Below, in pieces: positions 1 through 11,822 of a stretch of 12,752 nt of DNA (its first letter is position 1; every line of letters starts with the position of its first letter). The notes beneath the pieces were generated by a model. It had not been told where the DNA came from, did no database searches, and saw only the letters and a list, made by a program, of their open reading frames with translations. The translations under genes and the position numbers were made by a program. Source of the DNA: Verrucomicrobia bacterium GWC2_42_7 (GTDB lineage Bacteria > Verrucomicrobiota > Verrucomicrobiia > Opitutales > GWC2-42-7-A); NCBI GenBank assembly GCA_001831055.1, contig MIDO01000111.1:1-12752 (forward strand), given 5' to 3'.

Positions 1-693
1 AAAGCTGTCCTGAAGCAAGTTTTAAATACATTGCGCGAAGTCGCAGTCGAAACCAACAAGGAATGGGCAGCGAAATTAGGAATTAATCCAGCAGCGGCAA
101 TAACTTGCGTTAAGCCAAGCGGAACTGTCAGTCAATTAGTGGATTGCGCAAGTGGAATTCACCCAAGGCACAGTCAATTCTATTTCCGTCGCGTTCGTTC
201 AGACAAGAAAGATCCATTGAGCCAAATGATGAAGGCTGCCGGATTCCCTTGCGAAGACGATCTCATGAAGCCGCAGCATAATCTTGTGTTTACTTTCCCT
301 ATGAAAGCGCCTGAGGATGCGATCACAAGGGAACAAATGACTGCACTTGACCAATTGGATTTGTGGTTGACTTACCAAAATGAATGGTGCGAACACAAGC
401 CCAGTATTACTGTAAACGTCCGCGAACAAGAGTGGATGGAAGTCGGTGCTTGGGTCTATAAACATTTCGACCAAGTTTCTGGCATATCTTTCCTTCCTTA
501 CTCCGATCATTCCTATCGCCAAGCGCCATACGAAGAAGTTCGAGAAGAAGAATATAATGCATTGCTCCAAAAGGTCCCATCACAAGTGGATTGGAGTCTC
601 TTGCAGGAATTCGAAGTCGAAGACTCCACAACTGGTACCCAAGAACTTGCCTGTACTGGGGGGGCTTGTGAGTTGGTTGATATAACCAGGTAA
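1..693 (+). CDS. nrdJ: Adenosylcobalamin-dependent (class II) ribonucleotide reductase, C-terminal part
   Basis: The reading frame is open from base 1, so the gene starts outside the window; 230 C-terminal residues are present, against roughly 700-740 for the whole family. The protein reduces ribonucleotides to deoxyribonucleotides in the cytoplasm using a cobalamin-generated thiyl radical. Seen: the block CVKPSGTVSQLVDCASGIHPR near residues 36-56, which is typical of the monomeric class II (Lactobacillus-type triphosphate reductase) branch, and a C-terminal ACTGGAC motif. There two cysteines (about residues 218 and 223 of the visible part) have the C-x4-C spacing of the swinging redox pair that re-reduces the active site. 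The TAA stop is followed at once by the arm of a long hairpin (694-819) that probably terminates the transcript. The radical-site cysteine and B12-binding insert lie upstream and cannot be checked. The family call is firm; the triphosphate preference is inferred. Confidence 0.9.
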   Translation, partial: KAVLKQVLNTLREVAVETNKEWAAKLGINPAAAITCVKPSGTVSQLVDCASGIHPRHSQFYFRRVRSDKKDPLSQMMKAAGFPCEDDLMKPQHNLVFTFPMKAPEDAITREQMTALDQLDLWLTYQNEWCEHKPSITVNVREQEWMEVGAWVYKHFDQVSGISFLPYSDHSYRQAPYEEVREEEYNALLQKVPSQVDWSLLQEFEVEDSTTGTQELACTGGACELVDITR

Positions 694-819
694 CTGAAAA
701 AAGTTATTTCAAATTTGGAGTGTGTTGGACATCGGACTCACACTCCTTTACGTACGTATGTACGCTCGGTCGTGTTTGCCTCGTCCGCCTTCTCCAAATA
801 TTGAACTAACATTTTTCAG
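694..819 (+). repeat. Family A palindromic element, copy A1; likely nrdJ terminator
   Basis: A single long hairpin. The outer arm CTGAAAAAAGTTATTTCAAA at 694-713 continues to TTTGGAG and pairs with 793-819, which reads CTCCAAA, TTGAACTAAC and TTTTTCAG. The inner part carries the family core GAGTGTGTTGG, the dyad centre ACGTACGTATGTACG, and CTCGGTCGTG. In this copy the stem base is GGAG/CTCC where other copies have CGAG/CTCG, so both arms changed together. The first base follows the nrdJ stop codon directly. Confidence 0.85.
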
Positions 820-880
820 CGGAGGTTCATATAAAGAAGAGCTTACCTCTCCTTGCCTGCCTGCTCGAACTCTTAAATTA
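820..880 (+). repeat. Module M2 trailing element A1
   Basis: About 60 bp following A1, with the pattern CGG.GGTTCATA.A.AAGAGC, then CCTTGCCTGCCTGCTCGAA. Similar modules follow the right arm of A2 (twice), A4 and, on the other strand, A7. It ends in the same GCCTGCTCGAA sequence that closes the A core, which suggests it is an extension or a partial duplicate of the A right half. Confidence 0.6.
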
Positions 881-906
881 TAGTTAATTGCATTGAGAAT
901 GGAGAT

Positions 907-948
907 GAGGAAACCCTTCTTTTTGAGGTAAAAAAGAAGGGTTTCCTC
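907..948. repeat. Palindrome with AAACCCTTCTTTTT arms
   Basis: The arm GAGGAAACCCTTCTTTTT (907-924) pairs with the complementary arm ending at 948 around a short GAGGT loop. The hairpin at 9634-9664 has almost the same arm and loop, so this is a dispersed short repeat. It could fold in RNA from either strand and act as a terminator. Confidence 0.75.
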
Positions 949-971
949 AACCTTCCCAAGAAAAACCAATG

Positions 972-1010
972 ATTTGGCAATCAAAATCTTGCAGATTTTG
1001 ATTGCCAAAT
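972..1010. repeat. Perfect 18-bp stem, 3-nt loop hairpin
   Basis: The arm ATTTGGCAATCAAAATCT (972-989) is perfectly complementary to 993-1010 across the loop TGC. It lies between the convergent genes nrdJ and the methyltransferase-like gene. No other copy was noticed in the window. Confidence 0.8.
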
Positions 1011-1080
1011 AAATTTAGGCCATTGGATCCCCCGAGGGGAAGCGCAAAAGCGTCTCGACTGTCAATACATTTCACTATAT

Positions 1081-1193
1081 CATTCACGAAAAAACAATAG
1101 ACTTTATTTTTGTGAATGATCGCTTTCTTTGCGGACCACGAATTTATATATATATTTTCTTTTCTCGAGGAAAGAAAGGCTTTTGCACCTTGT
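1081..1193. repeat. Family D element, copy D1
   Basis: A variable hairpin (CATTCACGAAAA...TTTTTGTGAATG, 1081-1118) is followed by a tail ATCGCTTTCTTTG, CACGAATTT, TTTTCTTTTCTCGAGG, AAAGAAAGGCTTTTGCACC and TTGT. The tail matches 5609-5687 with scattered differences, whereas the hairpin arms do not match. A possible outer stem pairs GCGCAAAAGC (1042-1051) with GCTTTTGCAC (1179-1188). Confidence 0.7.
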
Positions 1194-1238
1194 CACCCAT
1201 TAATTGTCTTAGCTATATAAACAACAGTGATGTCACTT

Positions 1239-1273
1239 CGCCGAAGCGGAATCTGTAAGATTTCGCTTCGGCG
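1239..1273. terminator. GC-rich hairpin, possible terminator
   Basis: CGCCGAAGCGGAATCT pairs with GATTTCGCTTCGGCG around a GTA-type loop, a strong stem of about 15 bp. It lies about 80 bp beyond the 3' end of the minus-strand methyltransferase-like gene. There is no clean T run, so the terminator role is inferred. Confidence 0.55.
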
Positions 1274-1278
1274 ATATT

Positions 1279-1345
1279 CTCCTTTTCGGAAGGGGTTTGG
1301 GGAAACCCATTTTGGGGGACCAAAAAGGGTTTCCCCAAGTTTTTA
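1279..1345. terminator. Family B element B1; likely terminator of the methyltransferase-like gene
   Basis: The mini-hairpin CTCCTTTTCGGAAGGGG is followed by a hairpin at 1297-1338 with arms TTGGGGAAACCCATTTT and AAAAAGGGTTTCCCCAA. It starts 15 bp past the stop of the minus-strand gene that ends at 1353. Family B copies sit in the same post-gene position behind the translocase and barrel genes. Confidence 0.7.
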
Positions 1346-1352
1346 CCTTACA

Positions 1353-2321
1353 TTAACTTAACCTCAAATAAGTGTTAAATGCTACTTTATGAGCATGTTG
1401 GTCGTGGGCGCCAACGTGGAAGTCGATGTTTTCGTCTCTTGAAACATCTTTCCACCAAATGGGAGCGTAAGATGCTTTTAATTTAATGTCATTTCGGGTG
1501 AAGGTAGGGAAGTTTTCTTGGTTTGAGAAGAAGGTAGGAATGGGCGATTTTTCGTGATCGATGAATACTTTTTGGGTATCGCCTGATATAGCAATGAGGC
1601 CTTGTTTGTTGGTGATGGATAGATAGTTATTTATTTGAGCATCAAAGGACTTATCATTAAATATTTGCCATGCAAGGTAGGCGCTTTTTAGGAAGTCCTG
1701 ATGGGATATATCGGAATCGGGGATTGCCCTTAGTTTGTTTTCTAGGGCGAACATAATGGGAGTTCCCGTGAAAGTAGCAACCATTTCACTGTAAACAAGA
1801 TCAGCCGATTTAATGTTTTGAGAATTAAACAGATCGGCTAATGAATGGTTATTTTTATCCATCTCCATTTGGCTGACAAGATCGGCGATATCTTGGAGAT
1901 TGTGTTTTCTAAAGTTAGAAAATACTTTATTTATGATTTTATCAAATTTTGCAGCCAATCCCATGGTAATATCAGCCTGAACGATGTTGATAGGGATATT
2001 CTTAGAGATTTTTTCTAGGAGGCTCTTGCTTGATTTGATAAAATCGTGGGAAATATCTATTAATGTTATTTCCCTTATCCGTTTTAAAAGGATATTATTT
2101 ATCTGTTGATTCTGAAACAATGGAGCCCTGGGGCCTACGCCAATGTACACTAAATGGATTTTTTCTGAGTTATCGAAATTATCCATTAATGTCTTGAGTA
2201 AGTAATTTCTGAGAGGGCTATAGAGTGTCGTTTCCCAATTCGTGTTATTTACTTGGTAGTCGTACTCGTGAATGTTATTCATGTACTCTACGGATTTTTG
2301 TTCTAATACAGCGTTTTGCAT
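1353..2321 (-). CDS. Putative class I SAM-dependent methyltransferase-fold protein
   Basis: A 322-residue soluble protein with no signal peptide or membrane segment. I do not recognise the specific family. Seen: a glycine-rich strand-loop HLVYIGVGPRAP (residues 57-67) like motif I of Rossmann methyltransferases, a second strand ITLIDIS ending in acidic D89, VQADIT (114-119), a strand-4-like ADLVYSEMV (173-181), and GLIAISGD (241-248). The order and spacing fit an AdoMet-binding fold. The C terminus is rich in histidine and aromatic residues (FHVGAHDQHAHK, 301-312). The start is supported by AAAGGA six bases upstream of ATG. It is a lone gene, converging on nrdJ across a hairpin-filled gap. 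The substrate is unknown, and a non-catalytic Rossmann protein remains possible. Confidence 0.55.
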   Translation of the reverse strand: MQNAVLEQKSVEYMNNIHEYDYQVNNTNWETTLYSPLRNYLLKTLMDNFDNSEKIHLVYIGVGPRAPLFQNQQINNILLKRIREITLIDISHDFIKSSKSLLEKISKNIPINIVQADITMGLAAKFDKIINKVFSNFRKHNLQDIADLVSQMEMDKNNHSLADLFNSQNIKSADLVYSEMVATFTGTPIMFALENKLRAIPDSDISHQDFLKSAYLAWQIFNDKSFDAQINNYLSITNKQGLIAISGDTQKVFIDHEKSPIPTFFSNQENFPTFTRNDIKLKASYAPIWWKDVSRDENIDFHVGAHDQHAHKVAFNTYLRLS

Positions 2322-2327
2322 ATGTTG

Positions 2328-2333
2328 TCCTTT
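2328..2333 (-). promoter_or_regulatory. Shine-Dalgarno site for the methyltransferase-like gene
   Basis: AAAGGA on the minus strand with six bases to the ATG at 2319-2321. It is one of the clearer ribosome binding sites in the window and fixes the start of this gene. Confidence 0.6.
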
Positions 2334-2402
2334 GTTAGTTTGTTAAGAACCAACCGGATTGCATGACCCTAATTTTAAGCCAATGAAGGGTAAAGGACGT
2401 AA

Positions 2403-2448
2403 AAATGCAAAAGCCTTTCTTTTTCGAAAAAGAAAGGCTTTTGCATTT
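2403..2448. repeat. Perfect 46-bp palindrome
   Basis: Each half is 23 bases with no spacer. The left half runs AAATGCAAAAGCCTTTCTTT and on through TTC; the right half is its exact reverse complement, meeting at TTTTTCGAAAAA. The arm words GCAAAAGC and CTTTCTTTT recur in the outer stem and tail of D1. It lies about 80 bp upstream of the methyltransferase-like gene, so it is not a simple terminator of that gene. Confidence 0.9.
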
Positions 2449-2868
2449 GCATATCTCCAGAAAAAACAGAAATTGCTAGCGGGAAACATAACAATTTTGT
2501 CTCGTCGGTGAATAAGCAGTGGGTTACGACTTGATTGATCCATGCAACAATCTTCAGAATGACTCCCAAATGAATCCACAACTGAAGATAATAAGGTAGA
2601 TTGTTAACAAGTTGATTAGTATTAAGATAGCATAATTCGGTTATTGGGTAACAACGGGTCGAAATTCGCCCAAAAGCTTAAAAATTGTTTCGATGAGGAT
2701 TGTTTTTTAACGAAACATTTTTTGATTTTCAGCTTCATTTTGCCATTTTCTAAACGAACTATGCGCTACGTGTTGTTTGAGGGTGAACCTACGCCTATGG
2801 TGCTCAATTGTAAAGACTAAAATGTGATGTAAGTAATTTCATAGAGAAAGGAGGCGCGGAATCCGAGG
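2449..2868. other. Gene-poor intergenic stretch
   Basis: I see no convincing gene. A plus-strand frame is open from 2626 to 2820, but its first ATG (2761) would give only 19 residues (MRYVLFEGEPTPMVLNCKD) and I recognise no similarity. It could be the remnant of a decayed gene. No long hairpin was found in this part. Confidence 0.4.
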
Positions 2869-2941
2869 ACCTTTGAAAACTTCTGGGAAACCCATTTTGG
2901 TCACCAAAATGGGTTTCCCAGAACCTCTTCCGAAAAGAAGG
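2869..2941. repeat. Family B element, copy B2
   Basis: Contains a perfect 21-bp inverted repeat (2881-2901 and 2903-2923) around a single central base: TTCTGGGAAACCCATTTTGG, then TCACC, then the complement. It is followed by CCTCTTCCGAAAAGAAGG, itself a mini-hairpin. This is the best preserved B core. It is not next to any recognised gene end. Confidence 0.8.
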
Positions 2942-3156
2942 TGATGCGCGGAACTAATTTTTTAAAAATAGTTATACCCAAATGAAACAAATCATCCCTT
3001 TTTACTCCAAAACAAATTCTGTTTCAAAAATACGGTTTTTAGAGGTGTCCATCCTTTTTTTTGAAGGGAAATTTTGCTCTGGTATCAATTTTGAACGTAT
3101 TTAACCATAAAAGGTGAAAAATTGCCCGTTGATTATCAAATGGATAGAAGATTTAA

Positions 3157-3180
3157 TCAAACAGATCAAACAGATCAAAC
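3157..3180. repeat. Short tandem repeat, 9-bp unit
   Basis: The unit TCAAACAGA occurs 2.7 times without mismatch. It may be a replication-slippage product; no function is indicated. Confidence 0.7.
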
Positions 3181-3197
3181 GAAATGCTCATTCCATA

Positions 3198-3206
3198 TGT
3201 TATAAT
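3198..3206 (+). promoter_or_regulatory. Candidate extended -10 promoter upstream of A2
   Basis: TGTTATAAT matches an extended -10 (TG-N-TATAAT). No good -35 was found at 17 bp. Transcription from here would begin near the left arm of A2 at 3212. The region is AT-rich, so chance occurrence is quite possible. Confidence 0.25.
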
Positions 3207-3211
3207 AGATA

Positions 3212-3333
3212 GAAAAACATTATTTCAGTTTTCGAGTGTGTTCGGCTTCGGATTCACACTTCCTCACGTACGTTAGTACGCTCGGTCGTGTTCACCTTGC
3301 CCGCCTGCTCGAAATTCTGAACTAAAGTTTTTC
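3212..3333 (+). repeat. Family A palindromic element, copy A2
   Basis: The left arm GAAAAACATTATTTCAG + TTTTCGAG pairs with the right arm CTCGAAATTCTGAACTAAAG + TTTTTC. The core GTGTGTT, CGGATTCACAC, ACGTACGTTAGTACGCTCGG and TTGCCCGCCTGCTCG is well conserved. There is no gene immediately on either side. Confidence 0.85.
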
Positions 3334-3450
3334 AACGGGTCTATGAGGAAGCGAACAAAAGTCCGCCTGCTCGAAAAACCCTTGAGTTAACATCTTTTTG
3401 GGGGGCCATGAGGAGGGAGCAACAATGTCTTTTCCACCTTCTGGCAACCT
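3334..3450 (+). repeat. Two tandem M2-like modules after A2
   Basis: The first unit is AACGGGTCTATGAGGAAGCG ... GTCCGCCTGCTCGAAAAA. The second begins TTGAGTTAACATCTTTTTGG, then GGCCATGAGGAGGGAGCAAC ... CCACCTTCTGGC. The units follow the same order of words as the M2 of A1 and A4 but have diverged. Confidence 0.5.
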
Positions 3451-3572
3451 TAGAATACGTAACCTGGACTCCTCTAGAAACCCTATTTTCGGGAAAATGA
3501 AGATTTTTCCAAAAAATGCTGTGAAATATGCGCCATAAGAAGTTCCTGTAAAACTTATTATGGGCAGATTGC

Positions 3573-3640
3573 CTCCTTTTCGAAAAGGGGTGAGGGGAAA
3601 CTCTTTTAGGGGACTAAAAGCAGTGTCCCTTCAGTTTTTA
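3573..3640. repeat. Family B element, degenerate copy B3
   Basis: CTCCTTTTCGAAAAGGGG, then GGGGAAACTCTTTTAG and CTAAAAGCAGTGTCCC. The stem is imperfect compared with B2. A plus-strand frame is open through it into the membrane-protein gene starting at 3668, which would give a spurious 36-residue N-terminal extension made of repeat sequence. Confidence 0.6.
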
Positions 3641-3667
3641 GAAGTCCACCTTAACCTGAAAATACAT

Positions 3668-4108
3668 ATGCCTACTATACCATCTGAATTAATATCATTA
3701 CTGGGGTCTTCGGTCCTTGGGGGTGTAATGAAAGTCTGGTCTCGATCCAACGAGATCCGACTTTACGAACGTATGATTGCCTTACAGCATCTACATTCAC
3801 CTAGTGCGCCGCCAGGGGACTTTTTCAAAAGTCGATTCTCGGGGGGACGATCTTTTCAATGGACGCGTAAATTCATTGCATTGATTGCCGTCTTTTTCAT
3901 CATTGCCTTTCCGAAAATTGTTGCTGTCTGGATGCCGCAAGCCGTACACATTGGATACCAACAACTCTCACAAGGGTTCCTTTTCTTCTCCGACATAGAG
4001 AAGATAAAGTGGGTTCAAATGAAGGGGCTCGTCATCTCGCCTTTGGATACCCATATCCTAGCAGCTATCGTGGGATTGTATTTTGGGGATGTGGTTTCTT
4101 CTCACTAG
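3668..4108 (+). CDS. Small membrane protein with two hydrophobic helices (holin-like layout, function unknown)
   Basis: 146 residues from ATG 3668. The in-frame ATG at 3560 is rejected because the extra 36 residues translate repeat B3. Seen: an N-terminal amphipathic Gly-rich segment (LISLLGSSVLGGVMKVW, 9-24), a charged linker, a membrane segment at about 69-88 (FIALIAVFFIIAFPKIVAVW), a polar stretch, and a second weak membrane segment at about 127-143 (DTHILAAIVGLYFGDVV). This layout recalls small phage membrane proteins of the three-helix holin type, but I do not recognise the family. No lysis enzyme or other phage gene is nearby, so the phage idea is weak. No clear Shine-Dalgarno sequence. 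The stop codon TAG lies inside the outer arm of element A3, so gene end and repeat overlap by 4 bp. Repeats flank it on both sides. Confidence 0.6.
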   Translation: MPTIPSELISLLGSSVLGGVMKVWSRSNEIRLYERMIALQHLHSPSAPPGDFFKSRFSGGRSFQWTRKFIALIAVFFIIAFPKIVAVWMPQAVHIGYQQLSQGFLFFSDIEKIKWVQMKGLVISPLDTHILAAIVGLYFGDVVSSH

Positions 4109-4236
4109 CGAAAGATGTTGGTTTAAGTTTCGAGTGTGTTGGGCAGCGGATTCACATTCGGTTACGTATTTAAATACGCTCCCTCATGTTCACCTTGCCC
4201 GCCTGCTCGAAAACTTAAACTAACATCTTTCGCTAG
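4105..4236 (+). repeat. Family A palindromic element, copy A3; overlaps a stop codon
   Basis: The outer arm CTAGCGAAAGATGTT + GGTTTAAGTTTCGAG pairs with CTCGAAAACTTAAAC + TAACATCTTTCGCTAG along about 30 bp. In this copy the dyad centre is ACGTATTTAAATACG. The CTAG at its left end contains the stop of the small membrane-protein gene, so the hairpin could end that transcript. Confidence 0.9.
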
Positions 4237-4253
4237 CGTTATGCAAAGAGAAC

Positions 4254-4375
4254 AAAAGAACTTTTCAGTTTAGAGTGTGTTGGACATCGGACGCACATTC
4301 GGTCACGTACGTATGTACGCTCCCGGTCGTGTACGCCTCGTCCGCCTTCTCGAGAAATTGAACTAATCTTTTTCA
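4254..4375 (+). repeat. Family A palindromic element, copy A4
   Basis: It starts only 17 bp after A3. The left arm AAAAGAACTTTTCAGTTTAGAG pairs imperfectly with the right arm CTCGAGAAATTGAACTAATC + TTTTTC. The core TGTGTTGGACATCGGAC, ACGTACGTATGTACGCTC and CCTCGTCCGCCTTCTCGAG is closest to A1. Confidence 0.75.
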
Positions 4376-4450
4376 GCGGGGCCTATGAAGAAGAGCTTAG
4401 AAATAAGCTCCCATTTTGCCTTCCTGCTCAAAATCCTGAACTAAAGTTTT
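4376..4450 (+). repeat. Module M2 after A4
   Basis: AGCGGGGCCTATGAAGAAGA, then GAGCTTAGAAATAAGCTC (a 7-bp hairpin with GAAA loop), then TTGCCTTCCTGCTCAAAA and TGAACTAAAGTTTTCC. The word order is as in A1's trailing module. Confidence 0.55.
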
Positions 4451-4502
4451 CCTGGTCCCTTCGGAACAGGAGAATCATAAAAATTTTCCTGTTACAACGT
4501 AT

Positions 4503-4585
4503 CTCCTTTTCGGAAAGGGGGTTGGGGAAAACCCATTTAGGGTGACCAAAATGGGTTTTCCCCAAAAACTCTTTTCTAAAAGAGG
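4503..4585. repeat. Family B element, copy B4 (three-hairpin form)
   Basis: Complete architecture: mini-hairpin CTCCTTTTCGGAAAGGGG; main stem 4522-4565 with TTGGGGAAAACCCATTT and AAATGGGTTTTCCCCAA around AGGGTGACCA; second mini-hairpin CTCTTTTCTAAAAGAGG. It sits 63 bp upstream of the barrel gene start, in the leader or promoter region rather than after a gene. Confidence 0.75.
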
Positions 4586-4648
4586 CTTTTAGACGACTCC
4601 AGCTTATTGTATTGATTTTCCGATAAAAAGAAGCCATCGTAGATTTTT

Positions 4649-5413
4649 ATGAGGAAGACGATAATTTTCATATTATTGATCGGTGGGGGAGTGTTCGGGC
4701 ATCTTACTGCGACTGAAAAGGATAAGGATATAAGCCTCTCAGGCGGAGTAGGGTACGAATCCGAAGATGTTTCTCGAGCCTCAAAGCAATCGGGTCCGGC
4801 GTTGCAGGGGTCGCTGCAGCTGAACTACGAAACAGCTAATGGTGAAATCTACGTGGGAAGTTGGAATAATTATCCTTTTTCACGAAAAACTTTGGTTGCG
4901 GTAGAAAGCGATCCTTACTTTGGTTATCAACACAATTTGGGGGAAGTCTTTTATGCTGATTTTGGTTATATTTATAACTGGAAAGTAAATCCTCCTGCCA
5001 GTGTCTTAGGTCACAGTAATGAGGTCTATGTTGGGGTTTCTGGCGATGTCATGCTGACACCCAAAGTATATGGGTATTATGATCTTGATAAAAGACAATG
5101 GACTCTAGAATCTGCCATTGGCTACAGTTTCGATCTCAATGAACTAGGTGCGCCCAATACGTCCTTAGATGTAGGCCTTCTTGTAGGAATTTTACGTGCA
5201 AAGAGTGCTTATGGGCCCTTACGTCCCAGGCGTAATGGTTATGCGTATTTTGGAACCACGGCCGACATTGTCTATCACTTTAATGATGTCTTTTGTTTCA
5301 AAATCGGAATCCGTTATGCCGCCAACAACGATAAGCCCACTGGTGTCGCCAACGATATAGGCCACCACAAAAAAATGTTTTGGTACGGAACTGGCTTATT
5401 CGCTCAATATTAA
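4649..5413 (+). CDS. Exported outer-membrane beta-barrel-like protein
   Basis: 254 residues. The N terminus has a classic signal peptide: MRK, a hydrophobic run TIIFILLIGGGVFG, and a plausible cleavage after LTA (residue 21). The mature part is an alternation of short amphipathic strands rich in Tyr, Gly and Trp (LQGSLQLNYETANGEIYVGS, YFGYQHNLGEVFYADFGYIY, EVYVGVSGDVML, YGYYDLDKRQWTLESAIGYS) and ends in an aromatic residue (GTGLFAQY), as outer-membrane barrels do. The strand pattern recalls the small conserved proteobacterial barrel family TIGR02001, which is an impression from memory rather than a search. An in-frame TAG three codons upstream supports this start; the Shine-Dalgarno site is weak. 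The gene is flanked by repeats B4 and B8. Role unknown; a porin or adhesin-type surface protein is possible. Confidence 0.65.
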   Translation: MRKTIIFILLIGGGVFGHLTATEKDKDISLSGGVGYESEDVSRASKQSGPALQGSLQLNYETANGEIYVGSWNNYPFSRKTLVAVESDPYFGYQHNLGEVFYADFGYIYNWKVNPPASVLGHSNEVYVGVSGDVMLTPKVYGYYDLDKRQWTLESAIGYSFDLNELGAPNTSLDVGLLVGILRAKSAYGPLRPRRNGYAYFGTTADIVYHFNDVFCFKIGIRYAANNDKPTGVANDIGHHKKMFWYGTGLFAQY

Positions 5414-5430
5414 AAAAGGAAAAAGCATAG

Positions 5431-5467
5431 GGGGACCCGCCTTGGGTTGCCCAGAAATCGATTCCCC
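5431..5467. terminator. Family B element B8, probable terminator of the barrel gene
   Basis: GGGGACCCGCCTTGGGTTGC followed by CCAGAAATCGATTCCCC, 17 bp after the stop codon. It is nearly the same as B7 at 8201-8238. The stem is imperfect, and each copy is followed within a few bases by a family A element. Confidence 0.6.
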
Positions 5468-5471
5468 AACA

Positions 5472-5537
5472 AGAAAAACGTGATTTCTATTTTCGAATTC
5501 ATTGGGCTGCGGATTCGCACCTGGTCACGTACGTATA
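5472..5537 (+). repeat. Family A element A5, left half only
   Basis: GAAAAACGTGATTTCTATTT, TCGAATTCATTGGGCTGCGG and ATTCGCACCTGGTCACGTAC match the left half of A6 closely. The similarity stops at the dyad centre (ACGTACGTAT) and the right half is absent, so it cannot form the family hairpin. Confidence 0.8.
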
Positions 5538-5574
5538 GTATAAGACATTAAAGTTATTACAAAGCAAATTTCCT

Positions 5575-5687
5575 CGCCCAAGAAAAATCACTAGATTTTT
5601 CTTGGGCGATAATCGCTTTTCTTTGGAAATCGCGAATTTTTATACGTTTTTTCTTTTCTTGCGAAAAGAAAGGTTTTCGCATCTTGT
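5575..5687. terminator. Family D element D2; likely terminator of the amino-acid transporter operon
   Basis: A perfect 15-bp stem CGCCCAAGAAAAATC/GATTTTTCTTGGGCG (5575-5608) is followed by the D tail. The tail contains TTTCTTTTC TTGC GAAAAGAAA, a second hairpin. It ends 26 bp from the minus-strand stop at 5714, so it is well placed to end that operon. The tail matches D1 while the first hairpin does not. Confidence 0.7.
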
Positions 5688-5713
5688 TTATGCTTTAATG
5701 CCTTATGCTATAC

Positions 5714-7288
5714 CTAAATGATATGCCGTATTTTTTTACCTTTACGATTTTCGGTAGATAGGCGTTTTTCTGCCCAGCGGGCGAAACGGACAAAGGGAAG
5801 GCCTAGAAGGAGATAGATACCTGCAACGATGATGCCAGTTCCTAGGTAATCGTAATAGGTTGTCGAAAGCTGAGTGTAGGCTTTGGTGAGTTCAACGATG
5901 GTTATCATGGACACCAATGAAGAGTCTTTTAGGAGGGAAATGAAGTCGTTTGTTACGGGTGGGATGACAAAGCGAAAGGCCTGGGGGATAACAACATGCC
6001 ATAAGGCTTGAAGGTGGGTCATTCCTAGGGCGCGCGCTGCTTCCATTTGCCCTCTGGGAACTGAAAGGATGCCCGTGCGATAATTTTCTGCTTCGTATGC
6101 GGAGTAATTAATGGCTAACCCCATTACTCCCGCTATAAAGGGAGAAAGTTTGATCCCTAGGTATGGGAAACCATAAAAAATGAAAAGTAGTTGGATTAAG
6201 AGAGGCGTACCGCGGACTGTTTCTATATACATGGCTGCCAGCGCACTTAGGGGGCGTGGGCTATAAACGCGCATGACCGCCAATCCCATTCCCAAGACAA
6301 TAGCAATTACCATTGCAGTAAGAGAGATACCGAGGGTCATCCAAGCTGCACTGATCAAGGAGGGGAGTGCGTCTAGGTAGCGGTTGAATTTAGTTTTCCA
6401 CGTCGAACTTTTTGTGTGTGTCGACATGTTTTTTACAAAATCCATGTAGGCTACTGGAGCTTCCTTGATGGGAGTGGTATCGCCAATATATTCCGCCATT
6501 TGATCGTTCCACAATTTCCAACGTGATAAGATAGATTTTAATTCGCCATTTGCCTTCATGTCGCGGATGGCTGCATTTAATTTCATCACCAGGTCGTGGT
6601 CTTCTTTTCGGACAACAATCCCATAGGCAATTTTTCCGATTGGCTTGCCCACTAATTTCAGCTTCTCATTTGATCCGGCATAAAAGAGTGCAATGGGCGC
6701 ATCCAGTAATGCGGCATCGATGCGACCGTTCATTAAATCAGAGTAAGCATTAATTTCGTTGCTGTAACAGCGGACTTCGCTGACTGTCAAATCGTTGAGG
6801 ACGCTTAGTGCTTCGGAATTTTTTAGAGTCCCAACGATTTTTCCACGGCAATCCTCTAGCTCTTTGATGTCTTTTTCGTTAGCCCTTACGACTAGTTGTT
6901 GGTGTGTAACAAAATAGGGAATCGTGAATGCAACCTCGGCTTCCCTCGCTGGAGTAATGACCATTCCATCAACAACAAGGTCGTATAATTTGCGTTGAAG
7001 TCCTGGAATAAGACTATCCCAATCATTTTGAATGAATTGCGCTTCGTAGCCGAGCTTTTTAGCGATACATTCAACTACATCCACTTCAAACCCCACGACA
7101 TTGCTGATATTGTCGTGACTAGGGAATACGAATGGCGCGCCACTCTCTGAATCAGAAGCCCATTTTAATGCCGGCTTAGATGCATCCAATGCCGAGCAAA
7201 AGGCGATAAACAATGTAAATGGGTATAGAACTTTTTTCCCTTCGAAAAAGGACTTTCCCAATAAATAAATTAAAAAACCTTTTATCAT
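5714..7288 (-). CDS. Polar amino-acid ABC importer: substrate-binding protein fused to permease (GlnH-GlnP type)
   Basis: 524 residues. An N-terminal hydrophobic segment (about 18-34) is a signal anchor. Next comes a type 3 periplasmic binding domain (about 40-262) with GFEVDVVECIAKKLG, the carboxylate-binding arginine in TPAREAEVAF (R115) and the amine-binding acid in ALLDAPIA (D196). A linker leads to a HisM/GlnP-type permease domain (about 305-505) with four to five helices and the cytoplasmic EAA loop EAARALGMTHLQALWHVVIP (416-435) that docks the ATPase. Binding domains fused to permeases are known, e.g. Lactococcus GlnP. Glutamine or a related polar amino acid is the likely substrate; the exact one is inferred. 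It starts 7 bp after the stop of the ATPase gene without a clear ribosome site, so translational coupling is likely. Confidence 0.88.
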   Translation of the reverse strand: MIKGFLIYLLGKSFFEGKKVLYPFTLFIAFCSALDASKPALKWASDSESGAPFVFPSHDNISNVVGFEVDVVECIAKKLGYEAQFIQNDWDSLIPGLQRKLYDLVVDGMVITPAREAEVAFTIPYFVTHQQLVVRANEKDIKELEDCRGKIVGTLKNSEALSVLNDLTVSEVRCYSNEINAYSDLMNGRIDAALLDAPIALFYAGSNEKLKLVGKPIGKIAYGIVVRKEDHDLVMKLNAAIRDMKANGELKSILSRWKLWNDQMAEYIGDTTPIKEAPVAYMDFVKNMSTHTKSSTWKTKFNRYLDALPSLISAAWMTLGISLTAMVIAIVLGMGLAVMRVYSPRPLSALAAMYIETVRGTPLLIQLLFIFYGFPYLGIKLSPFIAGVMGLAINYSAYEAENYRTGILSVPRGQMEAARALGMTHLQALWHVVIPQAFRFVIPPVTNDFISLLKDSSLVSMITIVELTKAYTQLSTTYYDYLGTGIIVAGIYLLLGLPFVRFARWAEKRLSTENRKGKKIRHII

Positions 7289-7295
7289 CTAAAAA

Positions 7296-8069
7296 TCACA
7301 TAAAACATTTTAAAAAGCGACGAGTACGCTCATCCTTTGGCGATACAAAAATTTCATCTTCATCTGAAATTTCAATAAATTCACCATGCTCCATATAAAT
7401 AATGTAATCCGAAGCATCCTTCGCAAATTTCATTTCATGCGTAACAATAATTTGCGTCATTCCTTCAGCGTCCAAGTTGCGCATGACTTGCAATACTTCG
7501 TCCACCATTTGAGGATCTATCGAAGAGGTCGGTTCATCGTAGAGCATCACCTTGGGATTCATCGCAAGCGCCCGTGCAATGGCCGCCCGTTGCTTCTGCC
7601 CACCCGATAAGCTCGCCGGATAACGCGATCCCAAATGTTGCAATCCGACTTTCTTTAAAAGCTCGTTTGCCTTGTATTCCGCCTCATCGTGCTCCGCCTT
7701 CTTCACAACCAACGGCGCCAGCATCACATTTTGTAAAAGTGTCTTATGTGGAAATAAATTAAATGCCTGAAAAACCATGCCCACATGTTGGCGTAATTCA
7801 TGTGCCTTATGGTAAAAGGTAGAATCGAGCGGAATGTCTTCCGATGAGCGATGGATTCTCATCCCGTCTATCACAATCGATCCCGTGTCCAAAACCTCTA
7901 AACAATTCAGACATCTCAAAAATGTTGATTTCCCACAACCCGAAGGCCCTATCACCGAAACCAAATCGCCTTCCTCGATAGCAACATCGATGCCTCTTAA
8001 CACCGGAACATCATCATAACTCTTTTGTAAATTCTTTACCCGAATGAGAGGCTCTTTCTTTTCCATCAT
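7296..8069 (-). CDS. glnQ: Polar amino-acid ABC transporter ATPase (GlnQ-like)
   Basis: 257 residues, usual length for the family. Walker A GPSGCGKST (41-49), Q-loop FQAFNLFPH (100-108), signature LSGGQKQ (154-160), Walker B VMLYDEP (174-180) and switch histidine THEM (210-213) are all intact, so it should hydrolyse ATP. The D-loop reads SSIDP instead of the common SALDP, a mild substitution. It is first in a two-gene operon with the fused binding-protein/permease, together making a full importer on the inner membrane. Two ATG codons stand in tandem; AGGA is 4 bases from the first and 7 from the second, so the second (MEKKEP) may be the real start. The symbol follows the family; the substrate is not proven. 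Confidence 0.9.
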   Translation of the reverse strand: MMEKKEPLIRVKNLQKSYDDVPVLRGIDVAIEEGDLVSVIGPSGCGKSTFLRCLNCLEVLDTGSIVIDGMRIHRSSEDIPLDSTFYHKAHELRQHVGMVFQAFNLFPHKTLLQNVMLAPLVVKKAEHDEAEYKANELLKKVGLQHLGSRYPASLSGGQKQRAAIARALAMNPKVMLYDEPTSSIDPQMVDEVLQVMRNLDAEGMTQIIVTHEMKFAKDASDYIIYMEHGEFIEISDEDEIFVSPKDERTRRFLKCFM

Positions 8070-8073
8070 CAGT

Positions 8074-8077
8074 TCCT
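8074..8077 (-). promoter_or_regulatory. Shine-Dalgarno site of glnQ
   Basis: AGGA on the minus strand. Its distance fits the second of the two tandem ATG codons (8064-8066) better than the first (8067-8069). Confidence 0.45.
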
Positions 8078-8090
8078 GTGCTCTATATTG

Positions 8091-8118
8091 TTTATACGCT
8101 AATAATAGGGTTGAACAA
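8091..8118 (-). promoter_or_regulatory. Candidate promoter of the amino-acid importer operon
   Basis: On the minus strand TTGTTC, a 16-bp spacer and TATAAA, with the -10 ending about 20 bp before the start codon region. It is a reasonable sigma-70/sigma-66 match in an AT-rich region; no other evidence. Confidence 0.3.
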
Positions 8119-8200
8119 AAATCATACCTATCTCAAGTTCTACTTTTTTTCAAATTTATCAAGAAATTATTACATTTTTTTTATAAAAAACAACCCCTTT

Positions 8201-8238
8201 GGGGAAACTGCTTTGGGTTGCCCAGAAATCGTTTCCCC
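8201..8238. repeat. Family B element, copy B7
   Basis: GGGGAAAC and GTTTCCCC close an imperfect hairpin with TTTGGG TTG CCCAGA inside. It is nearly identical to B8 at 5431-5467 and, like B8, followed directly by a family A element. It sits about 80 bp upstream of the importer operon promoter candidate. Confidence 0.65.
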
Positions 8239-8240
8239 AA

Positions 8241-8366
8241 CAGAAAAACGTGATTTCAATTTTCGAGTTCGTTGGGCTGCGGATTCGCACTCGGTCACGT
8301 ACGGATGTACGCTCCCTCATGTTCACCTTGCCCATCTGCTCGAAAAATTGAACTGACGTTTTTCTG
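8241..8366 (+). repeat. Family A palindromic element, copy A6
   Basis: The left arm CAGAAAAACGTGATTTCAAT + TTTCGAG pairs with the right arm CTCGAAAAATTGAACTGACG + TTTTTCTG. The core has GTTGGGCTGCGGATTCGCAC, ACGTACGGATGTACGCTCCC and CACCTTGCCCATCTGCTCG. It is a complete copy whose left half and preceding B element are duplicated at 5431-5537. Confidence 0.85.
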
Positions 8367-8373
8367 GCCCCCT

Positions 8374-8426
8374 TCCGAAAAGGAATTTTCTACATTTTCG
8401 AGCAATAACAAAATTCCTTTCGGGAT
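8374..8426. repeat. Inverted repeat, 16-17 bp arms
   Basis: TTCCGAAAAGGAATTTT pairs with AAAATTCCTTTCGGGA across a 20-nt loop that contains TTTTCGAGCA, a word of the A family. The remaining 68 bp up to the next element show nothing recognisable. Confidence 0.6.
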
Positions 8427-8494
8427 TTTCCTTCCGCGCAAAGTTCTTCTTTGGGATAGGTTTTTGAAATCGATATTAAAAGAAGAGAAGTGAT

Positions 8495-8695
8495 CAGAAA
8501 GAAGTTATTTTAAGTTTTCGAGCAAGCGGGCAAGGTGAATATGATTCTTGCTCCCTCCCTATAGACCCGCTGAAAAATGTTAGTTCACTATTTGGAGCAG
8601 GCGGACGAGGCAAACATGACGGAGCGTACATCCGTACGTGACGGAGGGCGAGTCCGATGTCCAACACACTCGAAACTTAAACTAACTTCTTTCTG
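8495..8695 (-). repeat. Family A element A7, composite with M2, abutting the stress-protein stop codon
   Basis: The outermost arms CAGAAAGAAGTTATTTTAAG + TTTTCGAG and CTCGAAACTTAAACTAACTT + CTTTCTG enclose 201 bp. Read on the minus strand, the order is an A core (ACGTACGGATGTACGCTCCG), an internal right arm with GTGAACTAACATTTTTCAG, an M2 module (CGGGTCTATAGGGAGGGAGC), and a second right arm. It is therefore longer than other copies. Its last base touches the stop of the universal stress protein gene (8696-8698), so it is likely that gene's terminator. Confidence 0.8.
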
Positions 8696-9553
8696 CTATT
8701 TGAAGAGCAAGATAGGCACATGACACCGCCTAATAAGGTCCGTGGTGGTGCTGCCAATGATGAGGTGGCGGATAACGCCGTGTCCGTAGGCTCCCATGAT
8801 TAGAAGATGAACGTCTTTGTCTACAACGTATTTTTCTATCACGTCTCCAGGTTCACCTATCATGAGGTGCGATTGAATTTTATAACCTGCTGATTCCAAT
8901 GAATCGACTGCCTTTTTTAATAATAAAACATTGCTTCCGCGATCCTCTTCATTACTGCAAGTAATAAGGTGGAATTCCATCTCCTTAAACATCTCCGAAC
9001 GGGTCAGGAATTGAATCGCTCGATTCACTGAAGGACTTCCATCATATGCAATTAAAACACGTTGAATATCATGAAATTTCCTTGGAGTCACTAGGCAAGG
9101 TTTTGTCGCAGAACGAATAACACGCTCCATCGTCGACCCCAAATGCTCTGTCGCAATCCGCGCATTTTCTCCGCGTTTACCCAAGCAAATGACATCGAAT
9201 CCTTCCGTATCTTCTGAAAATTCTTCAAAACAATCCGTCAGAAAACCTGTCCGTTGATGGAACTTTACTCGGTCTTCTTCGATTCCATACTTTTTAAAAA
9301 CCTTATGTACCCGGCTTCCAATAAGCTTGGTCTTTTCCTTTTCAATGTCCTGTAGTTGCGAAAAAACTCCTTGAAATGGCTGAACCCCTAGACTGCCACT
9401 AAAATCAGTAACCATTGACATTTCAAATTGGCGTAGGTCCGAAACATAGAGAACATCAATTAACGCATGTGTCCGCTTCGCTAACCAAGCCGCATATGCA
9501 TAACAAACTTCTGAATCGTGAGAACCATCTGTGCAAACCAACAGCTTTTCCAT
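8696..9553 (-). CDS. Universal stress protein, two tandem UspA domains
   Basis: 285 residues, about twice a single Usp domain. Domain 1 spans roughly 1-158 and begins KLLVCTDGSHDSE. Domain 2 spans 164-285 and begins RVLIAYDGSPSVNRA. The ATP-binding pattern G-x2-G-x9-G-S/T is exact in domain 2 (GAYGHGVIRHLIIGST, 254-269). Domain 1 has GKRGENARIATEHLGST (125-141), with ten residues where nine are usual, so nucleotide binding there may be altered. Such proteins are cytoplasmic and act in stress survival, often by binding ATP; the partner is unknown. The gene appears monocistronic: element A7 abuts its stop and hairpins lie upstream. The Shine-Dalgarno site is poor, as AAAGG is only a base or two from the ATG. 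Confidence 0.9.
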   Translation of the reverse strand: MEKLLVCTDGSHDSEVCYAYAAWLAKRTHALIDVLYVSDLRQFEMSMVTDFSGSLGVQPFQGVFSQLQDIEKEKTKLIGSRVHKVFKKYGIEEDRVKFHQRTGFLTDCFEEFSEDTEGFDVICLGKRGENARIATEHLGSTMERVIRSATKPCLVTPRKFHDIQRVLIAYDGSPSVNRAIQFLTRSEMFKEMEFHLITCSNEEDRGSNVLLLKKAVDSLESAGYKIQSHLMIGEPGDVIEKYVVDKDVHLLIMGAYGHGVIRHLIIGSTTTDLIRRCHVPILLFK

Positions 9554-9633
9554 ACCTTTTATACTTTCACAATTCTAAAAAAATAGCAATCCCCTTCTTC
9601 GACGTTTTTCTATAAGAGAGTGCTAAAGCGCGA

Positions 9634-9664
9634 AAACCCTTCTTTTTGAGGAGAAGAAGGGTTT
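9634..9664. repeat. Short palindrome related to 907-948
   Basis: AAACCCTTCTT pairs with AAGAAGGGTTT, loop including TTTGAGGAG. The arm and the TTTTTGAGG loop are shared with the hairpin at 907-948. Here it lies about 80 bp upstream of the stress-protein gene and 5 bp before element A8. Confidence 0.7.
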
Positions 9665-9669
9665 CCTGA

Positions 9670-9792
9670 CAGGAAAAGCATCTGTTCTGTTTTTGGGTAT
9701 GTTGGGCTACGGATTCACACTCCCTTACGTACACACGTGGTCGGTGGTATTCACCTTACCGGCCTTCTCAAAAACAGAACAAATGCTTTCTG
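9670..9792 (+). repeat. Family A palindromic element, copy A8 (most divergent arms)
   Basis: The left arm CAGGAAAAGCATCTGTTCTG + TTTTTG pairs with the right arm CAAAAACAGAACAAATGC + TTTCTG. The arm sequence GTTCTGTTTTTG is unlike the other copies, yet both arms carry it. The core keeps GTTGGGCTACGGATTCACAC, TTACGTACACACGT and CACCTTACCGGCCTTCTC. Confidence 0.8.
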
Positions 9793-9980
9793 AACTTTTC
9801 CAAGAAACACTTTTAATAAGCTCATAATCAAAACCTTACGGTTTTTATTATGCGCTGGATGAGAAGTCGCCCCAAAACAAAATACTATATTCCTTTTCAA
9901 TGCGTTTTACTATACGACTTAACTTGCTTATGGTATATCAATAGAAATTTAATCACCTATATAAAATATCCGAAAAAAAC
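9793..9980. other. Intergenic stretch with one hairpin
   Basis: No credible gene. The only structure seen is CATAATCAAAACC/GGTTTTTATTATG around TTAC at 9823-9852. The rest is AT-rich and featureless. Confidence 0.45.
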
Positions 9981-10012
9981 TTGCGCGGTAATAAAAATTT
10001 ATTACCGCGCAA
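9981..10012. terminator. Palindrome, 15-bp arms, possible translocase terminator
   Basis: TTGCGCGGTAATAAA pairs perfectly with TTTATTACCGCGCAA around a 2-base centre. It lies downstream of the minus-strand translocase gene and behind element B5, so the two hairpins form a tandem 3' structure. Confidence 0.6.
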
Positions 10013-10018
10013 ATGGTC

Positions 10019-10078
10019 TCCTTTTTGGAGGGGGCTTGGGGGAGCCGCTTTGGGGTGACCAAAAGCGCTCCCCCTATA
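10019..10078. terminator. Family B element B5, probable terminator of the ATP/ADP translocase gene
   Basis: Main hairpin 10038-10074: GGGGGAGCCGCTTTGG and the complement AAAAGCGCTCCCCC around GGTGACC, preceded by CTCCTTTTTGGAGGGGG. The arms are GC-shifted relative to B2 (AGCCGC/GCGCT instead of AACCCA/TGGGTT) but still pair. It starts within 10 bp of the stop codon. Confidence 0.7.
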
Positions 10079-10085
10079 GCTCCTT

Positions 10086-11618
10086 TTAATGGGAACTGAT
10101 TTCTTTTTCTTCCTCTTTTTGGAGGACGACGATCTTGTTGCTAAGTCCTTTTACTGCAATTAACCAGATTAAGCAGATTATTACAAAGACTCCGGCGACC
10201 CAAGGTGCTAACTGTAATAGAGAGGCTCCTGGGAATGCAACGCTCATTAAGAAGGCTTGGATACTGGCTCCACCCGATTTTCCTAGACGTCCACCAACGA
10301 CGTCGACGACAGCTTTACCTTTGACTTTCATGTCTTCGTCTAGAGGGATGTACGCCATTTCCTTGGTTAAATCGAAGAGAGAGTATTTTGTCGATTTGAT
10401 TGCCACAACAACAACCGCACCTACCATTACCGCTAAAGCAACTGGGTTTGTTCCAATTTGTTGGATAAAGTCTGCTAATTCCGTACGGAATAGTACGAAA
10501 GCGAAAAACAAGCAACCTCCGAAGAACATGATTAGGGGGGTTACAACTGCTGCGGTAAACCAGCTGAAAATACGCAATATATTGCTGCCAACAATCATCA
10601 TTAGCATCGAAACGACGCCAGTCCAGAAGCTGAACTGATTCATGAACACGTTCATGTCATCGGGTCTTGGGTACTTGATTTTAACTTGGCTCTTCCAGGC
10701 GGCTTCAATTAGGTTAACACTTGTCCCGTAAGTAATGACCAAAATGGCGATCAAAGCAAGATAGGGCGATGTAAAGATGGTCATGAAGCTTTGAACAAGG
10801 CTTGGCTTCTTCTTTTTCTTTGCAACTCCAGGTAATTCGGGTTTGTCATAGAAACGTTTGTCAGTGAGTACGTTTGTATAAATCCAACGATAAATAATCA
10901 TCGTGAAGATACCAAAAACGAAAACGATACCCATTTGCCATTTTAATGAAATGCCCCATGCATCGACACCTTCTGGTAAACGGTCTTTGAGAGAAGAGAA
11001 GTATTCTCCAATGGTTCCTGAAAGCATTAAAGAGGTTTGGGCGATTAGTCCGAAAAATGCATAAAAACGTTTAGCTTCGGGCGTACGTGTAATTTGGTTT
11101 GCAAATTGCCAGAATGACAACGATAAAATGGCGCTACCCCAGATCTCTGCTAATACATAAAAAATAGAATAAGTCCAATTCCCGTAAATGGAGATTAACC
11201 ATTTTGCGCGAGGAAATTCAACTTGCCAGGCTTGTACTGATTCAATTGAAGGGTGCAAGATATCCCGATTTGGGTACAAGAAAAATGCAAATGCTCCAAA
11301 AAATAGCACAAATGGGGTCAATGTAACATAAAACAACTTTTCGTTACTAAAAATGTTACTTGCTTGCGCATACATAACCATAAAAATGATGGCTGCAGGC
11401 GTTACACAAAATAACTTTAGATAAGAAAGGGCTTCTGCACCAGATCCTCCTGCTGTCACAATTAAACTATCCTTTATATTACGCAAACAGGTATAGTTAA
11501 ATAGAATGAAAAAGAATATCATACTCATAGGTATAACCTTCTTCAATTCATACATGTGTATCGGAAATAACATCGATCGTAATTTCCCAAACTGCGGATG
11601 GGCTGTATTAGTGCTCAT
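10086..11618 (-). CDS. npt1: ATP/ADP translocase (NTT/Tlc family)
   Basis: 510 residues with 11-12 membrane helices, the normal size. Chlamydial and rickettsial members swap bacterial ADP for host ATP across the inner membrane. Seen: an N-terminal FGKLRSMLFPIH..ELKKV that closely follows chlamydial Npt1; RNIKDSLIVTA with K49; YVLAEIWGSAILS with E158; NLIEAAWK with E305; KYSLFDLTKEMAYIPL (411-426); and VVGGRLGKSGGASIQAF (440-456) with K446. These lysine and glutamate positions correspond to those described as essential in plant and bacterial carriers. The strong likeness to Npt1 favours ATP/ADP exchange over the nucleotide-import paralogues, but substrate is inferred. The gene stands alone, with terminator-like B5 and the 9981-10012 palindrome behind it. 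No good Shine-Dalgarno site precedes the ATG. Confidence 0.95.
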   Translation of the reverse strand: MSTNTAHPQFGKLRSMLFPIHMYELKKVIPMSMIFFFILFNYTCLRNIKDSLIVTAGGSGAEALSYLKLFCVTPAAIIFMVMYAQASNIFSNEKLFYVTLTPFVLFFGAFAFFLYPNRDILHPSIESVQAWQVEFPRAKWLISIYGNWTYSIFYVLAEIWGSAILSLSFWQFANQITRTPEAKRFYAFFGLIAQTSLMLSGTIGEYFSSLKDRLPEGVDAWGISLKWQMGIVFVFGIFTMIIYRWIYTNVLTDKRFYDKPELPGVAKKKKKPSLVQSFMTIFTSPYLALIAILVITYGTSVNLIEAAWKSQVKIKYPRPDDMNVFMNQFSFWTGVVSMLMMIVGSNILRIFSWFTAAVVTPLIMFFGGCLFFAFVLFRTELADFIQQIGTNPVALAVMVGAVVVVAIKSTKYSLFDLTKEMAYIPLDEDMKVKGKAVVDVVGGRLGKSGGASIQAFLMSVAFPGASLLQLAPWVAGVFVIICLIWLIAVKGLSNKIVVLQKEEEKEISSH

Positions 11619-11760
11619 ATTATTAATTTAATCTGTTCCATTTTCCTCTCCCCCACGTTTTACTCTAAACGCAATATAAAGAAAAAGGAAGTGATAATCC
11701 TTAAGACAATTTTACCTTCCTACTCAAGATAAAAATTCATTTTTTTAGAGGGTAGGGGGT

Positions 11761-11822
11761 TCTGAAAATTCCAGGGAAACTTCTTTTAGTTGTCTAAAAG
11801 CGTTTCCCGCAAAACCTTCAGA
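11761..11822. repeat. Family B element, copy B6
   Basis: Inner stem GGGAAAC...GTTTCCC with CTTTTAG/CTAAAAG (11774-11808), closed further by TCTGAA (11761-11766) and TTCAGA (11817-11822). It lies about 140 bp upstream of the translocase start and 200 bp beyond the peptide-transporter gene end, so it could serve either gene. Confidence 0.6.

Follow-up and report, generated by a model that had tools for sequence, protein, structure and literature searches.

We analyzed a 12,752-nucleotide stretch of DNA from Verrucomicrobia bacterium GWC2_42_7 (assembly GCA_001831055.1, contig MIDO01000111.1, positions 1 to 12,752; hereafter the window), in which a family of imperfect hairpins of about 126 nucleotides lies dispersed between the genes. 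Copies were located by repeat search, alignment and a covariance model (CM) of 126 positions. The window contains seven full copies along with half copies, and all eight places listed in a first-pass annotation of the sequence (A1 to A8) are real and homologous. One of them had to be redrawn, as A7 is a minus-strand copy at 8570-8695 accompanied by a separate half copy at 8490-8560. In the list below, z compares the RNA fold with that of shuffled sequences, the GAG strand is the one reading GAG..TGA at the hairpin tip, and hp2 and hp3 are two further palindromic families described later.

694..819, plus strand: A1, full hairpin (CM 150.5 bits; z -7.7 on the GAG strand)
853..887, plus strand: right-half copy 3' of A1 (repeat search)
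3210..3335, plus strand: A2, full hairpin (CM 136.6 bits), with a repeated promoter-like module directly upstream
3362..3410, plus strand: right-half copy 3' of A2 (sequence)
4105..4236 (arms; model match 4108-4233), plus strand: A3, full hairpin (CM 137.2 bits)
4248..4376, plus strand: A4, full hairpin with poor arm pairing (CM 102.6 bits)
4416..4450, plus strand: right-half copy 3' of A4 (repeat search)
5472..5537, plus strand: A5, left half copy ending at the hairpin tip (repeat search, sequence)
8241..8366, plus strand: A6, full hairpin within a filled hp2 composite site (CM 132.2 bits)
8490..8560, minus strand: right-half copy beside A7 (repeat search, sequences)
8570..8695, minus strand: A7, full hairpin whose left and right arms match poorly (CM 125.0 bits)
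9671..9793, plus strand: A8, diverged full hairpin within a filled hp3 composite site (CM 95 bits)

Each full copy had been described as folding end to end. This applies to A1, A2, A3, A6 and the outer arms of A8, where z ranged from -5.2 to -11.3 over both strands and none of 100 shuffles was as low; the outer arms of A3 are 26 bp long and 96% complementary. In A4 and A7 the arms are poorly matched and the fold is accordingly weak. For A4, the GAG strand gave a z of -2.3, with 1 shuffle in 100 as low, and the other strand -0.6 (22 of 100), for A7 it was -1.8 (5 of 100) and -2.5 (none), and with DNA parameters the two copies gave -0.12 and -0.24, respectively. By eye, the arm of the half copy at 8490..8560 fits the left arm of A7 better than the right arm of A7 itself does. 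The stop codon of the open reading frame (ORF) upstream of A3, which ends at 4108, falls, also by eye, inside the left arm of A3. Rfam gave no match in the window and no family for the hairpin in the 11 loci checked.

To the suggestion that copies could number in the hundreds, the assembly (1,296,502 bases in 133 contigs, 64% complete) gave a favorable answer. All 150 candidates scored, out of 1,329 first-look candidates, matched the model at E<=0.01, so a lack of further copies is excluded. Contigs C1-C20, taken in order (209.8 kb), hold 25 copies scoring 60 bits or more, including one that a contig end truncates, and at this density about 155 copies are expected in the 1.297-Mb assembly. The density in the window is about four to five times the assembly average. 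In the host genome, 197 model matches were reduced to the best 150, which were aligned, and then to 110 copies after removal of overlapping reverse-strand duplicates, leaving a few weak places uncounted. The host had been linked to the Chlamydiota. It belongs instead to the Verrucomicrobiota, since a genome of the same order but another family is Verrucomicrobia bacterium GWF2_51_19, as stretches of 4 and 8 kb are 100% identical to MIDP01000005.1. That genome has 82 exact tips, and the model found 67 matches (E<=0.1) in 334 kb. By eye, its copies form at least three subtypes with wholly different outer stems that are nevertheless paired.

The part shared most widely is the apex of the hairpin, whose strand has the form GGAGC-KTAN-(loop)-NTAM-GTGAC and contains an internal loop, GAG/UGA. 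A further box, AAGG/RAC, is shared too. The window copies carry both in a long hairpin (AAGG..CAAC is seen by eye in A1). Dispersed long hairpins with the same tip and box are found in the Bacteroidota, Clostridia, Bacilli, Deltaproteobacteria, other Verrucomicrobiota, and Enterobacterales. Within the phylum, the apical strand TCACGTAC-N3-6-GTACGCTC is present in five of 387 genomes including the host (57 + 45 occurrences there), while the reversed control is found in two, neither among the five. A looser tip was found in nine of the 387 against two for its control, and a different tip pattern in 17 of 198 Bacteroidota genomes (starting genome included), again against two. The tip is patchily distributed among genomes. 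In GTDB species genomes, GTCACGTACN{3,5}GTACGCTCC matches at least 118 stretches; the matches listed include Bacteroidales, Porphyromonas, Clostridia, Christensenellaceae, Sporosarcina, Lysinibacillus, Shouchella, Coriobacteriales, Deltaproteobacteria, Vampirovibrio, and Enterobacterales, among others. Control matches to the tip pattern numbered zero in 19 genomes.

The sequences around these tips also pair. At least 30 flank-flank pairs were formed in 104 of 126 tip-centered loci compared to 104 of 630 shuffled controls, with fewer than 20 in 10 of the 126. The second box, with AAGG on the left side and RACR at a corresponding distance on the right, was found in 63 of the 126 loci where shuffles predict 9.1. 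Chance as the source of the likeness, including chance palindromic words, is ruled out by the reversed-tip, flank-pairing and second-box controls. We also searched 17 whole genomes holding the tip with a model (R1) trained solely on 13 copies from the host genome, scoring 150 candidates in each. Matches at E<=0.001 were found in 14 of the 17, numbering 130 (the deltaproteobacterial bin WY2.bin34), 55, 48 (Porphyromonas somerae), 23, 19, 18, 9, 6, 5, 5, 2, 1, 1, and 1. Among tip-selected loci, matches confined to the tip scored 19-27 bits and the best full-length matches 45-73 bits. Closer to the host, seven of 35 genomes of its order have matches, namely the host, GWF2_51_19 and five others with weak signals (1-8 matches each); this sample held no other genome of the host's own family. 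Loci in two of these five (G029 and G031) have, by eye, variant tips with exchanged base pairs, GTAG/CTAC and GTAT/ATAC, and for this reason look like family members. A viral contig, IMGVR_UViG_3300024580_000032 (L255), has two ERIC-like hairpins between genes (5975-5997 and 10026-10048). It codes for phage portal, head, tail sheath, tail tube and tape-measure proteins, and this phage is a possible carrier of the hairpins.

The Enterobacterales branch is ERIC, as 13 of 17 loci hold the published primer core (ERIC1R/ERIC2, 44 nt) with 4-10 mismatches, ungapped. The other four fail the ungapped test, at least one (L250) visibly through a longer loop. The Clostridiaceae genome M8S5 has 86 tips, mostly GAGCTTAC..GTAAGTGA, which is ERIC's stem variant. 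Like the window element, ERIC (also IRU or RU-1; Enterobacteriaceae, Vibrionaceae) is a long imperfect hairpin of about 127 bp that is non-coding, intergenic and multicopy, with the tip GGAGC-KTAC-NNNN-GTAM-GTGAC and an AAGG/CAAC box. The arms are unrelated, however, and the phylum is different. A1, A4 and A6 differ from the primer core at 19-22 of 44 positions, the tip being the shared part, and their family ends in CAGAAAG..CTTTCTG, whereas ERIC is described with TA termini and a TA target duplication (PMC2229807, PMC2759123). As tip and plan are common while the rest of the core and the TA ends differ, the window copies are kin of ERIC and not ERIC itself. A 2024 paper places ERIC in the Enterobacteriaceae and Vibrionaceae (PMC10969869), and a 2007 paper describes its transfer mechanism as not elucidated (PMC2759123). 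We found no report of ERIC-type elements outside the Gammaproteobacteria in a mainly open-access literature. In Citrobacter youngae, a match to the Rfam sRNA STnc540 overlaps an ERIC copy (L229, 4526-4699), hinting that STnc540 is partly ERIC-derived.

One strand of the hairpin folds better than the other. Across 83 genomes, told apart by accession prefix and contributing 131 copies, the GGAGC..GTGAC strand has the more stable fold in 81, by a mean of -13.6 kcal/mol with RNA parameters. Isolated mismatches on this strand are of the tolerated kinds: G.T outnumbers A.C 85 to 21, G.A outnumbers T.C 103 to 2, G.G outnumbers C.C 15 to 3, and A.A outnumbers T.T 13 to 4. Counted by genome, G.T exceeds A.C in 45 and the reverse is true in 7. 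In the host genome the GAG..TGA strand, which in A1 is the minus strand, folds better in 53 of 56 copies (mean -5.7), with 27 G.A against 2 T.C; A7 and A8 are exceptions, their other strand being better by 0.8-0.9 kcal/mol. The general pattern would be compatible with RNA and single-stranded DNA alike. A DNA-only reading, taken from equal G.U and A.C counts in the host genome, was dropped because the mismatches over the 83 genomes show strand polarity.

In most of the genomes tested, the copies also have a preferred direction. GC skew marks the leading strand. In the host genome the folding strand is opposite the contig's G-rich strand in 78 of 110 copies (p 9e-5), or in 26 contigs against 5 by majority. 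The direction had no link there to coding-strand balance (p 1.0) or to co-oriented flanking genes (p 0.25). After tandem arrays were collapsed in both genomes, 56 of 78 copies in M8S5 follow the same rule (p 2e-4), as do 19 of 22 in Clostridia RGIG5325 (p 7e-4). The M8S5 figures apply to a turning point placed at 2.5 Mb for best fit, which is in line with the change of GC skew in the stretches examined. The polarity is the same way round in these three of the four genomes tested. Such a preferred direction suggests insertion during DNA replication.

The window family is real, mobile and non-autonomous, and it is a Verrucomicrobiota lineage of an ERIC-like superfamily that we propose here. The explanation we consider probable is that of a non-autonomous mobile element, an imperfect hairpin of about 126 nt carrying no gene, within a superfamily that spans several phyla and includes ERIC. 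The first-pass annotation had already proposed non-autonomous palindromic repeats lacking coding capacity and a transposase, and that much is supported. It lacked the relationship to ERIC and to dispersed hairpins in other phyla, the better fold of one strand, the orientation tied to replication, the insertion at fixed points of palindromes, and the mosaics of half copies.

The last two features are seen at the sites the copies occupy. In the host genome, copies occupy fixed points of other palindromic composites. The hp2 family combines GGGGAAAC..GTTTCCCC with a box that is itself a short hairpin, CCCCTTCCGAAAAGG; of 129 such boxes in 459 kb, 85 are empty, nine are filled, always in one orientation, and 35 are of other kinds. 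The hp3 composite, AAACCCTTCTTT..AAAGAAGGGTTT plus CTTCCCAAGAAAAACC, is likewise repeated in the genome, with eight boxes filled and at least 15 empty. In 13 cases a copy sits at the left-half tip of another copy with the uniform junction ACGTA[CT]TG|C[AT]GAAA, and of 65 fuzzy matches to a linker, 30 lie directly 3' of a copy. Unrelated genes are preceded by a repeated promoter-like module that contains ATCAAAC iterons in tandem as well as TATAAT, and in eight of nine modules a hairpin or half copy begins within about 10 nt of TATAAT. These features are located as follows.

908..960, plus strand: hp3-type composite lacking the element, a paralogous empty site as judged by eye against filled hp3 sites
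9633-9670: hp3; the family is also found at L074, L107 and L116
1279..1345, minus strand: hp2-type composite lacking the element, likewise a paralogous empty site
2876-2940, 3573-3635, 4505-4566, 8199-8240, 10018-10075 and 11774-11808: other hp2 members in the window
3120..3208, plus strand: promoter-like module of the kind just described, running up to A2; also at L064, L098, L099, L109, L110, L111 and L114, and at L068, which has no hairpin
4234..4257, plus strand: linker of the CGGGGTTATGCAAAGAGAGCAAAA type at the A3-A4 junction (linker search)

In M8S5, direct repeats of 17-31 bp bracket 24 of 34 copies with recognized ends (20 of 26 loci), a count that includes array members, and the repeats are mostly a local terminator-like hairpin that has been duplicated. 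As a control, left and right flanks of different copies match equally well in 13 of 1,122 comparisons. The test covered 44 of the 86 tips in 30 stretches, the first ten of which were picked for closely spaced copies, and the ends of 10 of the 44 were not recognized.

Such arrangements could also arise if mosaic palindromic blocks were amplified by replication slippage and template switching at hairpins, with no dedicated enzyme and with the same process correcting the arms to perfect complementarity. The nested and tandem half copies, the junction repeated uniformly in 13 places, the linker arrays and concerted pair swaps would all fit, as would the replication-linked orientation, the 17-31-bp target-hairpin repeats in M8S5, and the fact that neither enzyme family we tested is common to all element genomes. 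Slippage leaves unexplained, however, both the conservation of tip and box over phyla and the dispersal to unlinked sites with repeated exact ends, and we regard it as unlikely.

A second alternative is that the hairpin is primarily a structured RNA element, such as a 3' UTR stabilizer, an RNase E/III site or a terminator, and its dispersal secondary. The stronger fold of one strand, seen in 81 of the 83 genomes, would be expected of an RNA, as would the eight copies or half copies that begin right after the promoter-like module, and RNA effects of ERIC in Yersinia have been described (PMC2229807, PMC10969869). The relation of the host-genome copies to genes argues otherwise. They are intergenic, dispersed, and in both gene orientations, with 28 against 20 by orientation to flanking genes. 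Placed relative to genes, as the annotation had proposed, 24 lie between convergent, 48 between tandem and 15 between divergent genes, or 1.22, 0.87 and 0.74 per kb of intergenic DNA; ORFs in this count were called by a simple script, 14 copies fall inside short, probably spurious ORFs, and nine are at contig edges. The excess between convergent genes is mild and there is no clear bias to gene ends, so a terminator or 3'-end function in the host genome was rejected. G.U and A.C mismatches are equally frequent there, and the polarity tracks contig skew and not genes. A main function in RNA is in our judgment quite improbable. After insertion, the copies in the host genome look like passive residents, with no clear gene-end or gene-direction bias.

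Third, the copies might be ordinary miniature inverted-repeat transposable elements (MITEs) belonging to an insertion sequence that recognizes terminal inverted repeats and is extinct or has not been seen. In bacterial MITEs such as Correia/NEMIS, RUP, bcr1 and Rickettsia RPE, the defining features are the ends and short target duplications. They are of similar size, with inverted repeats and no gene (PMC2229807). The host-genome consensus shares the trait of terminal inverted repeats, CAGAAAG..CTTTCTG, and long complementary arms, paralogous empty sites and the absence of a visible cis enzyme agree with this origin. Across lineages, however, the centre of ERIC-like hairpins is conserved and not the ends, where a transposase binding the termini needs the reverse; the host genome lacks a classical short duplication, and strand polarity is not expected either. 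This account strikes us as the least probable of the three.

Other known systems show similar features. REP/BIME and REPIN sequences, mobilized with the RAYT (Y1) transposase, are intergenic palindromes in mosaics that follow a single-strand hairpin logic, as in the window element. REPs are 20-40 bp with GTAG/CGTC tags (PMC3733652). We found no Y1_Tnp in the window assembly (64% complete), GWF2_51_19 or WY2.bin34, which sets the window element apart from them. Integron attC sites are also recognized as a folded single strand with bulges and strand polarity. The window copies, in contrast, are dispersed among ordinary genes and not lined up as cassette arrays.

Several results weigh against a mobile hairpin that inserts at replication. 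The polarity in the host genome is weak when intergenic skew alone is used (p 0.08), and many of its contig skews are near zero (0.006 in the window). In M8S5 the cut point was chosen for best fit and polarity is not separated from coding direction, with which it is confounded in RGIG5325; GWF2_51_19 has no polarity (16 of 34 copies). Mismatches in the host genome follow the strand rule poorly, with 7 G.T to 5 A.C, or 91 G.U to 91 A.C in the alignment minus one fixed column, and with G.G to C.C (1 to 7) and A.A to T.T (2 to 11) opposite to the rule. Long target repeats are not above control in the window genome, GWF2_51_19, WY2.bin34, P. somerae or the Enterobacterales. There is also no convincing short target duplication among 55 unlinked copies of the host genome, where the best of many offsets gave 10 against 2.0 expected for 2 nt inside the arms. 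The insertion mode in M8S5 may therefore be special. R1 found no matches in the Sporosarcina, Shouchella and Vampirovibrio genomes, though the tip is present. Descent of tip and box from a common ancestor across phyla is itself inferred, with convergence on a shared binding protein as the alternative.

The search for a partner enzyme also counts against mobility. No recurrent transposase-like cluster lies beside the copies; the protein clusters found in at least three loci (top 45) appear, by eye, housekeeping-like or repeat-derived. No larger cis element with M8S5 ends was found among 81 left and 96 right ends paired by eye, and no parental transposase with the same ends turned up in the 64% complete host assembly. 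Y1_Tnp is encoded in four of 15 element genomes and RVT_1 in six, with neither in the window assembly (G000), GWF2_51_19 (G012), WY2.bin34 (G414) or G418. As both are missing from several element-rich genomes, we rejected them as the common partner, keeping in mind that several of these assemblies are incomplete.

For the mobile hairpin the following route can be proposed. The GGAGC..GTGAC strand, single and folded, would be the moving form or an intermediate, and a protein would recognize it at the tip. Insertion would take place at replication forks, into sites with an extruded hairpin, through staggered nicks on both strands at the hairpin base. Nicks of this kind could explain the hairpin-long duplication in M8S5. 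More tentatively, and with rather less confidence than we place in mobility itself, ERIC may be one branch of a pan-bacterial group of mobile hairpins. All members would be recognized by the same structure of the folded strand, and an unrecognized, widely distributed machinery, neither Y1 (PF01797 type) nor reverse transcriptase (PF00078 type), would insert them at replication forks where the target site can form a hairpin.

Two further observations concern the host. A 510-aa ORF at 10086-11618 of the window resembles, by eye, an ATP/ADP (nucleotide) translocase, and this suggests an intracellular life style. In the assembly, runs of N lie within or next to repeats at L110, L109 and L098. Some of the breaks in the assembly may be due to these repeats.

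ERIC repeats have been used for decades in bacterial typing. Kin in other phyla, a defined folding strand, its replication polarity, and the hairpin-long target repeats of M8S5, a complete genome, would together make the movement of ERIC a testable question. The family is also a marker for past activity and its conserved hairpin a bait for the missing protein, and it may account for some of the repeats at which such assemblies break up.

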